This document shows, in pieces, positions 2,773 through 53,991 of a stretch of DNA of 64,000 nt. Each line of letters begins with the position of its first letter. The stretch's first letter is position 1. Source of the DNA: Acidobacteriota bacterium (lineage in GTDB: Bacteria > Acidobacteriota > Terriglobia > Terriglobales > Acidobacteriaceae); contig QIAU01000133.1 of assembly GCA_003225055.1 (NCBI GenBank), positions 1-64,000 on the forward strand. Direction: 5' to 3'. The notes under the pieces are model-generated. The model worked only from the letters and a program-made list of their open reading frames with translations, made no database searches and had not been told where the DNA came from. The translations under genes and the position numbers were made by a program.

Positions 2773-3002
2773 ATCCGTCGCTGTGCTTCCAATCAACAGA
2801 CTCCGAATACAAGGGCGCCTAAGCCGGGAGGCAGCCGCCAAATCGTTACCGACCACCCACTTGGAACCATGCTCAGAAACCGGCTCTTAAAAGCAGCAAT
2901 GCGGTTGGCCGCCTGCTTCCCCCACCCCGGCTGCGCTATCATACCCTCGCGCACGCTGCCGCTCGTTCATTCCGGTCTTAGCCCGGGCTGCGCGTCGGTC
3001 GC

Positions 3003-4067
3003 TCAGGATGACATCGCACGATGGGCGCTGGTGAAACGGACTAATGCATCCAGTTTCCCGGCGGCGCCACCGGAGTCGATGGACTTAGCAGCCAGGGGAA
3101 GCACTTCGGAAAGGTGATTTGCTCTGCCGGCTGCCACTAGGGCAGCCGCGGCATTCAGTAGAACAATATCTCGCCGGGCAGAGCGCTTTCCACCCAGAAG
3201 TTCCCGAATGATCGCGGCATTGGCTGCGGCGTCTCCACCCGAAATCTCTTCGATCCGTGCGCGCTTGAAGCCAAACTCCTCGGGCGTGACCTCATAGGAG
3301 CGTACAGTTCCCTCACGCACCTCAGCGACGCGCGTCGATGTAGTCACCGTGATTTCGTCCAGCCCATCATTGCCATGGACGACCAAGGCCCGGTGCAGCC
3401 CCAACATGCTGAGCGCCTCGGCCAATGTTTCGACCAGTTCCGCCGAATAAACCCCAACTACCTGGGCGGAAGCACGCGCCGGGTTGGTGAGCGGCCCCAG
3501 CAAATTGAACACCGTTCGCAACCGGAGTTCGCGCCGTGCCGGTTGCACATACTTCATCGCCGAATGCATGGCGGGAGCAAACAGGAACGCGATCCCTATT
3601 TCGTCCAAACAGGCTGCCAGGCGAGCTGGCGGAAGATCGATGTTTACGCCCAGGGCTTCCATGACGTCTGCCGACCCGCACTGTGACGTCACACTGCGAT
3701 TGCCGTGCTTGGCCACGCGTACGCCCGCCCCCGCCACCACCAGAGCCGTGGCGGTTGAAATGTTGAATGTCCCGCTGGCATCGCCGCCGGTTCCACAGGT
3801 GTCAACCAGGGCATCGCGTTCCGTGCCGCTGACGTCCAGGGTAGAATTGCGCCGGATCGGCAGAGGAGCAGCCGCCTGGCGGATGGCCTCGGCGAATCCG
3901 ACAATCTCCTCCACGGTCTCGCCTTTCATGTGCAGACCGACGAGCAGAGCCGCTATCTGCGCATCCGTGCACCCGCCCGCCAACACCTCCGACATCACTC
4001 CGCGGGCCTCTTCGCGCGATAGCGACTGCCGATGGTTTGCGATCCGGTGCAGGACGTCAGTGATCAT
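3003..4067 (-). CDS. trpD: Anthranilate phosphoribosyltransferase
   Basis: Transfers phosphoribosyl from PRPP to anthranilate, second step of tryptophan synthesis from chorismate. The 354 residues contain the glycosyltransferase family 3 core: [17 protein letters not shown] (pyrophosphate/PRPP binding, residues about 88-105), [21 protein letters not shown] (anthranilate site) and the GLDEITVTT segment near 235. Length and motifs are normal. No other trp gene is adjacent, so the pathway is scattered here. The gene is convergent with the DinB gene and divergent from sucC. Its start ATG at 4067 follows GGGTTCCCC with only a weak ribosome-binding site. Confidence 0.95.
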
Positions 4068-52017: not shown

Positions 52018-52150
52018 GCGATTCCCGTATCTCCATTGAATTTACACGATGGGGGCGGATTCCGGGAACCGGAGGCTATCGCGTTCGGAAAAGCTTGGAA
52101 GAGGAGGAACTGATGATGAATTAGCGAAACCTCTTATCGCAATCCAGTGG

Positions 52151-52868
52151 GTGCGAGTGCCACCTGACTAAAGTCGAGCAGACGGGTCAGTATCGAGTCT
52201 TTCGATTCACCGGGTGACTGGTGGGTGTCGAAGCGTAGGCAGAAAGGAAGCAGGCCGCGAAGATCAGCTCCGAAATCGTTTCTTCGTTGCGATGCCGACG
52301 TGCTTAGCCTGGCGGAAGGCAGTATCCGGCAGCGACTGCTATCGCGAGGTCGTGCTGGGGTCGCCGGAGTCCCTAGCCCGGGCATGTTTCCAAAGGGATT
52401 GTCCAGGAACCGAAGAGAGCTCTCGATCTCCTCCTCTACCATGGGAGGTACGTGACCCCAAGGGTTGACCGAAGGGGCACGGACGGATCTTGAGCAGTGG
52501 TAGAAACCAATAATGCCGAAGACGGTGGGGAACCGCAGGGCTCCCGCAAGGGGCGGCCACGGGAGCCACTGGAGGGAAGGGGTTGCCCGAGTGGATGTAT
52601 CGGGCGAGGGAAACATAGTCGAGGCTCAGAACTCGGTTGCTATGTTCCCAAAACTCGACCGACTATCTGCACCGAAGCAGGATGAAGATCCCTGAATCGG
52701 GGTGGTGAATCCGCTTGACGAACCCGCTAGGAGAAATCTGCACGGTGGGTTCTGTGAGGGGGGGAGGCCCCGATGCGCCAGGATGGACCTAAACGGGCAC
52801 GAAGCTGAAAAGGGCGGATACAGCCAAGGAAAGTCTACAGTGCATCAGGGGCCTCCTCCACTCGGCGA
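52151..52868 (+). mobile_element. ORF-less group II intron (degenerate)
   Basis: The segment starts GTGCGAGTGCC, a group II 5' end, and contains the typical D1 text GCGTAGGCAG and GATGCCGACGTGCTTAGCCT. Near its end GAACCC (52720) to GGGTTC is a domain V-like hairpin with a GAAA loop, then GTGAGGGGGGGAGGCCCC paired with GGGGCCTCC (52847-52855), a domain VI-like stem. Its loop is about 75 nt, much longer than usual. No reverse-transcriptase gene is in domain IV. The triad position reads AAC where AGC is normal, so splicing is doubtful. Boundaries by eye. Confidence 0.65.
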
Positions 52869-52875
52869 GTAAAAA

Positions 52876-52896
52876 GGGGCGGGATCATCCCGCCCC
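52876..52896 (-). terminator. Intrinsic terminator for the EXORDIUM-like gene
   Basis: GGGGCGGGA, loop TCA, TCCCGCCCC; on the minus strand it is followed by TTTTT (the A run at 52871-52875). It lies 25 bases after the minus-strand gene's stop and directly beside the 3' end of the intron. Confidence 0.85.
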
Positions 52897-52920: not shown

Positions 52921-53991
52921 TCATTCTCGCGCCGTGCAGGCGTGTTCGAAGTTGTCGTACTCAAGCTGCAACGCGTATTGGCGACGGCCAATTCGTATGG
53001 TGGATGGATCGAAGAAATGGGGGATGACGAACGAGCACTCATCCCCGATTTCTTCTCCCTTCAGCCCGTTATCCATGCTGTTCCACCATCCTGTTCCGTC
53101 GGGATCGGTGATGACTTCGATCAATTCGTGGGAAAGGACATTATTGGTCGAGTCGACAAGCTGTCCGTTGGGAGTGCCTGTCCGCACATGACAGCTGCGG
53201 ACGTTCTGGTAAGGCTCGACGGTGTACAAGACGTGCCCGATATCGGTGAAATCCACGCTCCCATGGTAAGCGCAGAAAACGAAGCTGTTCAAGTTATCCG
53301 GCGAGTAGCAGACCGTGAAGGAAGAATCGAAACACTCGTCGGTGCCCGGCGGGAGAAACACGTGATAGATGTGCGTGTATCCAGTCTCGCCGGTGGCAGA
53401 GGCAACGGCGTGTACTACGGCAAGCATGTCGGCATCGGTAAAAGGAGTACTCGCGAAACCCGGACTCGCCGGCCCCGGCTTGAACTTGAAAGTTGCCCTT
53501 CCACCAACCGTATAGCGGTTATCGGAATTCAGCCCGACGTACTGATCGACAGCGTGGATGAACTCGCTCCGCCCGAGGTCCGTTAGAAAGCCTTCCGGAT
53601 CGCCCCAGCAGCTGGCGATGGTGCAACTCCCGTTCGGGTTGAGGTAGATAGCGTGGGACTCGGTGAACTCCACGACTGCTCCGCCATGGTAGCTCAGATC
53701 GCCGGGAGAGCGCGCCAAAGGAGGACTGGAGGGTGCGGCAGCAGGGGCGGCTGCCGATGCCGGATGCGCAGGCAACGTGCCGGTTCTCGCCGGAGCCAAA
53801 TCAAGGTTCGCCGGTCTTGCATGGCGACTCAGATGTGTGACTTGACGGACTGCGGCGCGGTCGGCGGCAGACGGCCTGACCGCAAGTTCATTTGAGCTTT
53901 GGGCGTGGGATGGAATTAGCGCAAGAGAGCCAAGAAATCCTGCGCACATCGCGATTGACAAGATGCGACGTGAAATGGAAACGGCCAGCAT
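52921..53991 (-). CDS. Secreted EXORDIUM/phi-1-like protein
   Basis: 356 residues. GGAG precedes the ATG. Signal peptide IAMCAGFLGSLALIPSHAQS, then an Ala/Pro-rich linker (about 50-100), then a globular domain with VEFTESHAIYLNPNGSCTIA, YTHIYHVFLPPGTDECFDSS, and LSHELIEVITDPDGTGWWNS. The SHELIE-x-x-TDP pattern, with two possible metal ligands and an Asp, recalls EXORDIUM-type proteins and some secreted proteases. Six or more Cys suggest disulfides. Activity unknown. About 350 bases before the start hold no gene. Confidence 0.65.
   Translation of the reverse strand: MLAVSISRRILSIAMCAGFLGSLALIPSHAQSSNELAVRPSAADRAAVRQVTHLSRHARPANLDLAPARTGTLPAHPASAAAPAAAPSSPPLARSPGDLSYHGGAVVEFTESHAIYLNPNGSCTIASCWGDPEGFLTDLGRSEFIHAVDQYVGLNSDNRYTVGGRATFKFKPGPASPGFASTPFTDADMLAVVHAVASATGETGYTHIYHVFLPPGTDECFDSSFTVCYSPDNLNSFVFCAYHGSVDFTDIGHVLYTVEPYQNVRSCHVRTGTPNGQLVDSTNNVLSHELIEVITDPDGTGWWNSMDNGLKGEEIGDECSFVIPHFFDPSTIRIGRRQYALQLEYDNFEHACTARE

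Follow-up and report, generated by a model that had tools for sequence, protein, structure and literature searches.

An ORF-less and probably decaying group II intron of a lineage with a UCGCG start, a GM end and an AAC triad

Does a stretch that carries the words of a group II intron and holds no maturase gene represent a dead copy or an intron that still splices, and where does it begin and end? An earlier note had read such an intron, of about 718 bases, at positions 52151-52868 of the window (the whole 64-kb stretch of DNA that was analysed), and had described its altered triad and oversized domain VI (D6) as features of a copy that may be dead or may be spliced with the maturase of another intron. 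Our analysis gives it different borders, 72 nt away at the 5' end and 2 nt away at the 3' end, and points, with a probability of about 0.7, to a 788-nt, ORF-deleted, probably non-splicing and decaying copy of a mobile group II intron from a lineage with UC...GM ends and an AAC triad. Its homology to relatives, its borders, its pairings with the exons and the features that it shares can be read from the sequence.

By homology and by its D1, D5 and D6, compared with the structural definition (D1-D6), the element is an ORF-less group II intron. Its main parts are the following.

52079-52866, + strand: group II intron, ORF-less, 788 nt, 5'-UCGCG...CUCGGC-3', delimited by EBS1-IBS1, EBS3-IBS3 and the borders of its relatives
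52154-52380, + strand: match to Rfam RF02005 (group-II-D1D4-6), 104 bits
52720-52752, + strand: domain V (D5), triad A52721-A52722-C52723, with the middle A facing U52750 and three of four consensus distal pairs broken
52755-52864, + strand: D6, with the branch A at 52860 by position, from the alignment and the covariance model
52768-52849, + strand: arm of D6, its GAAA-capped hairpin altered in the window copy (GCUGAAAAGGGC), from covariation over 12 sequences and private changes

The D1 words noticed earlier do belong to a D1 of group II type, which exceeds the gathering score of RF02005 by a wide margin (104 bits against 49, E 2.5e-28 in the 64-kb window). When the 3' part was checked with covariance models, as the earlier note had advised, the Rfam D5-D6 family RF00029 reported no match in the window even at E up to 1, and a model of 11 relatives, from which the window copy was left out, recovered D5-D6 at 52720-52866 with 117.9 bits (E 1.2e-23) as its sole match in the 64 kb at E up to 1. 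Both exon-binding interactions, EBS1-IBS1 and EBS3-IBS3, are found by sequence pairing. A reverse transcriptase (RT)/maturase in D4, which is usual and not required, is missing from the window copy and present in its own-genome relative C215; one source, in its available text, recognizes introns without an ORF as a subset of the group II introns (PMC4424553).

The start of the intron is set by the pairing of EBS1 with the 5' exon.

52073-52078, + strand: IBS1 AGGCTA, the last six bases of the 5' exon, 6/6 Watson-Crick with EBS1
52305-52310, + strand: EBS1 TAGCCT
52147-52163, + strand: D1 hairpin whose loop holds GTGCG (52151-52155), from sequence and alignment

IBS1 directly abuts TCGCG at 52079, and the likeness to C215 continues for about 72 nt upstream of 52151, to this TCGCG and the six exon bases that precede it. 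TCGCG is common to copies at other sites, and the sequence upstream of it differs among them. IBS1 and EBS1 vary jointly (AGGCTA/TAGCCT, GACGCA/TGCGTC, ATTCTG/CAGAAT, TCATGA/TCATGA, CCTCGA/TCGAGG, ACGTTA/TAACGT). We scanned 66 sources for six bases that abut NNRYG and form at least 5/6 Watson-Crick pairs with the EBS1 position, and obtained a best placement in 40 and none in 26. TCGCG was best in 13 of the 40 (the window, C215, L056-L061, L063, L065, L068, L126 and L131) and TAGCG in one (L067); the outgroup placements fell on GTGCG in 17, GAGCG in four and GTACG in two, and three further placements look spurious. That the intron begins canonically with GUGCG at 52151, as had been read before, is scarcely credible to us: the letters are present, but they lie in the loop of a D1 hairpin (stem GTGG 52147-52150 / CCAC 52160-52163) whose word varies among other copies (GTGCA in C215, L056, L057 and L059, GTGAA or GTGAG in L061 and L063), the hairpin of C215 being similar with other letters, and C215 has its second, lower-ranked placement in the scan at a GTGCG. 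To the eye, or to a word search, the GGTGCRA in the loop of this D1 hairpin can pass for the GUGCG start of an intron.

At the 3' border, a base of D1 pairs with the first base of the 3' exon.

52372, + strand: EBS3 C, the sole alignment column that splits eight introns as IBS3 demands; the same place pairs in canonical relatives
52867, + strand: IBS3 G, the first base of the 3' exon, pairing with EBS3 C52372

With this pair the intron ends at 52866 and not at 52868. We place the 3' end there because the ends of the lineage are fixed by an empty site, by the EBS3 column and by independent 3' ends; both borders together follow from the two exon pairings, the shared TCGCG and the empty site known in the lineage for L059 and L060. 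These two introns interrupt the D1 of a different group II intron, and the empty site is seen in copies of this host that lack the insertion. One such copy, L149, matches the L059 flank at 92% identity (query bases 76-228) and reads GAGCAGGCCTCGA-AAAAACAATTGCAGG, where L059 reads GAGCAGGCCTCGA, then TCGCG...CTCTACTCGGC, then AAAAACAATTGCAGG; each of the nine uninterrupted host loci listed shows GAAA where the flanks join, and 14 nt separate GGCC from G(C/T)(A/G)GG. The joined flanks of L059 and L060 fit both only if the intron is UCGCG...CUCGGC, with the A exonic and the C intronic. The two may derive from a single insertion event. A search of 200 genomes, which had no known positive and is therefore weak, found no empty site for L056.

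The same register was obtained from EBS3. In the alignment of the 5' parts, one column splits the eight two-ended introns as the first 3'-exon base demands, with U opposite A in L056, L057, L059 and L060 and C opposite G in the window, C215, L063 and L065, a match that is conditional on the intron ending CUCGGM. Of 12 canonical sources with a stated exon base, 11 have the corresponding base of D1, which follows GUC, paired with the first base of the 3' exon, and in the twelfth, L109, no motif was found. A script that allowed either A or G as the penultimate base was tried on 23 canonical and nine UC-type sources; it placed 12 of the former, all with GAY, and eight of the latter, all with GGM, while the ninth, L126, received no placement. 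The first and penultimate bases are U/G in the 8/8 placed UC-type introns (of nine tried) and G/A in the 12/12 placed canonical ones (of 23 tried). Second registers also fit in L084 and L099 (one base shorter, with G penultimate) and in L056 (one base longer); a canonical match in L074 was dropped as spurious, and ten other canonical sources had no placement.

Further 3' ends come from L067 and L068, which were not used in forming the idea and have C and T as EBS3 with G and A as first 3'-exon bases, the linkage of their 5' and 3' ends being less sure because a second intron seems nested in each. Ten later loci (L170, L204, L205, L207, L209, L211, L213, L215, L216 and L217), some of them near-identical and all found with a pattern that fixes only CUACUCG or CCACUCG, continue with G(A/C) and then A or G. 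By eye, L126 ends ...CCGCGA|G through an EBS3 C, or alternatively CCGCGAG| by likeness to the canonical CCGCGAC and CCGCGAT. For L148, on a Methylocystis plasmid, an end GGC|G with EBS3 C was read by eye; it was left out of the counts, as its 5' end gave no EBS1 pairing. As for a γ-γ' covariation with the last base, column 520 splits complementarily; we claim nothing from it, as C stands at this column in only two lineages and two other columns split too.

We infer from these alignments that the lineage runs 5'-UCGCG...CUACUCGGM-3', or 5'-UCGCG...CUACUCGG(A/C)-3', in place of GUGYG...AY; the window copy itself reads UCGCG...GC. Could these ends be an artefact, with the real splicing some bases away at a GU-like word? 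There is precedent, since C.te.I1 and fungal rRNA introns are described as splicing away from their own GUGYG word (PMC4424553, in its available text), and L059 and L060 provide one site, maybe from one event. We hold it to be very improbable, given that the joined flanks match 9/9 host introns only with the borders above and that EBS1 and EBS3 independently abut the same ends.

The second peculiarity is the triad. The D5-like hairpin with AAC for AGC had been correctly seen: it has the fixed length (33 nt), the 2-nt bulge and the register of its AGC relatives, and it carries AAC, as its relatives also do, in the place of AGC (or CGC). A strict filter (33 nt, all seven basal pairs verified except at the triad middle, at least 3/4 distal pairs) was passed by 82 distinct D5s, 39 of them with AGC as G.A, 30 with AGC as G.U and 13 with AAC; among the last the opposition was A.G in ten, A.A in two, A.C in one and A-U in none. 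Neither the window D5, whose distal stem departs from the consensus, nor that of some relatives passes this filter. Across the 12 aligned rows the middle A is faced by G in nine and by A in two, and U stands there in the window copy only. A crystal-structure review calls the middle G of the triad (G359) invariant, and its available text states that in Oceanobacillus iheyensis the change G359A makes an A-U pair, blocks the binding of catalytic metal and abolishes activity almost completely (PMC3669008). As far as sequence can tell, the AAC of the lineage is the natural counterpart of G359A, as a rule without the opposing U. In searches of an open-access library we found no description of an AAC triad or of a UC start for group II introns.

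The extra loop of about 75 nt that had been reported in D6 corresponds to an additional arm of about 80 nt (52768-52849). Within D6, a bulged branch A at -7 is predicted by position (CUCCACUCGGC, A52860; relatives have CUCUACUCGGM). Over 12 sequences the D5-D6 structure, arm included, has 94.2% of its cells paired, and two-sided changes occur at 17 of 42 pairs; sliding the partners gives no more than 6, and shuffles average 8.2. The comparison favours the structure, which was drawn from the same 12 sequences. In most rows the tip of the arm is GCYG-GAAA-CGGC. We dropped the idea that the arm is unique to the lineage: our model R1 and a motif search found similar arms in distant introns (L111, L173, L174, L178, L181 and L182 with AGC-type D5, L171 and L172 with other D5), so that we regard it as a wider D6 module and not as a lineage mark. 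The arms of L173, L174, L178 and L181 have the word GGCAC, a hairpin and AACAG, and that of L182 is similar without AACAG; these are perhaps a general D6 module. As to the partner of the arm, our guess would be that its GAAA loop docks or that the maturase grips it. On its own strand the window arm matched no other Rfam family at E up to 1; on the other strand (52843-52894) ROSE_3 scored 17.6 bits, far below its cut-off, and was set aside.

What remains of the coding part, and what lies beyond the 3' end, is given by two features.

52642-52695, + strand: remnant of the start of the maturase ORF (MFPKLDRLSAPKQDEDP, then stop), recognized by likeness to C215
52871-52896, - strand: intrinsic-terminator-like hairpin of the convergent gene 52921-53991 (hairpin 52876-52896, U-tract 52875-52871)

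That there is no maturase gene was borne out for the whole of 52079-52866: the first 17 codons of the ORF are kept, then comes a stop and soon the sequence that precedes D5 (52642-52719), and the intron is about 1.26 kb shorter than that of C215 (788 vs 2045 nt). The 3' end also lies, as had been said, next to the terminator of the neighbouring gene, an inverted repeat with a U-tract on the minus strand behind gene 52921-53991. Class C introns that stand behind terminators have the terminator hairpin in the 5' exon and on the same strand; here the terminator-like hairpin is in the 3' exon and on the opposite strand. The neighbouring gene has matches in 14 of 60 other genomes, two of them strong (59% and 43% identity).

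A maturase-bearing copy, for which the earlier note had suggested a search, does exist in the same genome. The related intron C215:21899-23943 has an open RT/maturase frame of about 436 aa from an MSTDIDRI start, with 340 bits to NCBIfam TIGR04416 (group_II_RT_mat) and 116 bits to Pfam RVT_1. Elsewhere in this genome, C131 holds a copy traced only by its final 42 maturase codons and its D5-D6, and C56 a short match; other group II introns are present too, with 10 RF00029 matches, four above its cut-off. The closest relatives of the C215 maturase are from Acidobacteria, which makes an acidobacterial host likely. Maturase matches spanning 428-437 of 437 residues at 66-87% identity were found at 11 loci (L056-L063, L065, L067 and L068), the frame having been checked as uninterrupted for C215 and being possibly broken in L065. 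AAC and the D6 arm are common to C215 and to relatives in several phyla, which removes them as oddities of one dead copy.

In a maturase tree (n=48), 11 of the 12 included UCGCG/TAGCG introns fall, with L062 and L066, in one 13-row group with support 100/100, whose hosts are Acidobacteriota, Planctomycetota, Candidatus Melainabacteria and Pseudomonadota; L131 was too short and was left out. The twelfth, L126 (Imhoffiella), has UCGCG and AAC with a maturase placed elsewhere in the tree, so that two label changes are forced. We do not count it as an independent origin because its D1 spacing of 234 is like that of the lineage (231-239) and unlike the canonical one (192-217); an exchange of maturase is as likely as an independent origin. 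Behind the U/G vs G/A contrast there is a single clear change, perhaps another in L126, and the ends predicted in print for UHB.I2. Among 4422 plasmid records all relatives were below 60% identity, and the L126 maturase had no match in plasmid records at 1e-150.

Several of these loci have particular surroundings. U-type introns lie precisely at the outer boundary of an insertion sequence or its relic (terminal repeat TAGCCTGGATTTCCACGG) in L063 (2148-2166) and L131 (~2360-2379), and in L061 there is one at each end of an insertion sequence, pointing outward (~381-394, - strand; 673-686, + strand). The 5' flank of L126 (~2300-2375) has motifs by which we take it to resemble an integron attC site. 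A second group II RT sequence lies inside or beside the intron in L067 (2219-4308) and between D1 and the maturase in L065 and L200, as nested introns. In L068, about 0.8 kb between D5 and D6 (2912-3757) begins GTGCAGC, seems to end CCTACGCGAC, and has the appearance of a nested group II intron, ORF-less and placed in J5/6. L216 and L217 (G184, G659) have D6 pieces near-identical to that of L204 and the same 3'-exon start, GACAGG; L216 looks fused to the D5-D6 of another intron.

Is the lineage a working variant, or an RNA that has lost catalysis as a whole? We infer splicing and mobility for it, and lean towards a working lineage in which the triad G has become A (mostly A.G vs G.A or G.U) and the splice-site bases would have been replaced as a set: the first G by U, the second U by C, the penultimate A by G, the last Y by A or C, and the first 3'-exon Y by R. 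A tie between the penultimate and the first base is known from published biochemical work (PMC4238363, PMC3669008, in their available text). The effect of the homologous G359A in O. iheyensis (PMC3669008) would rather suit a lineage of catalytically dead RNA, copied by its RT or merely inherited. This we judge improbable in view of the near-full-length maturase matches at 11 loci, of EBS1 changing with IBS1 across sites and EBS3 with IBS3, and of the two-sided changes in D5-D6. Reverse splicing, moreover, requires the ribozyme. A coupling of AAC with the U start was considered and rejected: the two are separable, since L034 and L039 have AAC with GTGCG (by eye) and canonical ends, and UHB.I2 has a U start with AGC.

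There remains the state of the window copy. We propose that the intron would have entered its site by reverse splicing guided by EBS1-IBS1 and EBS3-IBS3, that about 1.26 kb with most of the maturase gene would have been lost later, or while it was a non-autonomous copy with a C215-like maturase acting on it in trans, and that it is probably decaying now. No other of the 12 sequences has as many private changes at conserved D5-D6 columns: the window copy has 10, and G127/L041, the next, has 8. Of the 10, three break D5 distal consensus pairs (10-22, 11-21, 13-19), two fall in the arm hairpin, whose GAAA loop is gone, and one is compensated (columns 64/117, G-C to A-U). Broken D5-D6 pairs number 6 of 42 in the window copy, 6 in G127/L041, and none in C215 or L056. 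That it still splices with the trans help of a C215-type maturase, the loss of the ORF having made it a non-autonomous intron, appears rather unlikely to us. Such a reading can draw on the related open maturase frame in the genome, on the intact exon pairings, the long stable D6 stem and the compensated change, on a D5 fold of -14.5 kcal/mol (with a shifted distal stem) close to those of C215 (-15.8) and L056 (-14.0), and on the statement, in the available text of PMC4424553, that bacterial ORF-less introns nearly always coexist with a related IEP in the genome. Against it stand the A-U triad, the broken distal pairs and the lost arm loop, and recognition by the C215 maturase is not assured, as the D1 of the window copy is only about 80% identical to that of C215. 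A relic is favoured by the A-U triad, the ORF deletion and the private changes in D5-D6. The dead copy first suspected is thus still the likelier state, on other grounds: what speaks for it is the A-U triad, the changed D5 distal stem and the lost arm tetraloop, and not the AAC or the arm.

If our reading of the lineage is correct, its first and penultimate bases would have covaried in nature, at a contact derived from biochemical experiments (as far as the available sources describe it), and the lineage would show that the active site which group II introns have in common with the spliceosome can also work in a second form. Its cut sites and catalytic letters differ from those that textbooks treat as invariant. 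With a G359A-like change and new splice ends occurring naturally in introns that are apparently mobile, compensation at this active site would become testable by swaps of a few bases, and the lineage could serve to test the workings of this ancestor of our own splicing machinery. A search that depends on GUGYG, AY or AGC would put such introns in the wrong place or overlook them; the silence of RF00029 on the window intron is an example.

Among known systems, the nearest are introns with endonuclease-less maturases about 45% identical to that of C215 (Variovorax L072, Rhizobium L084). They have EBS1 and EBS3 in like places, a D5 of the same length and register (33 nt), the bulged A of D6 and an RT/maturase, but they start with GUGCG (or GAGCG, GUACG), end in GAY and carry AGC (G.A or G.U), where the window lineage has UCGCG...GGM, AAC (mostly A.G) and the D6 arm. 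In related genomes, L034, L038 and L039 have AAC opposed by G, as in the lineage; L034 and L039 start with GTGCG (read by eye), and all three end ...CGCGAT or CGTGAT with a short D6. The predicted ends of UHB.I2, a CL1-class IIB1 intron from a hypersaline metagenome, are UUGCG...GU, with the first U and the penultimate G of the lineage; it differs in its AGC triad and CL1-class IEP, and in the available text its ends are predicted and not treated as a paired change (PMC7923331). RmInt1 also departs from AY at its 3' end (CC), with another base, and in the available text the 3' end alone is named as deviant (PMC4238363). Finally, the G359A mutant of the O. iheyensis IIC intron has an A in the middle of the triad, as in the lineage, and an A-U pair, as in the window copy; there it is a laboratory mutation that abolishes activity (PMC3669008, available text), whereas in the lineage the middle A is the natural state, and the 13 AAC D5s retained by the strict filter oppose it with G, A or C.
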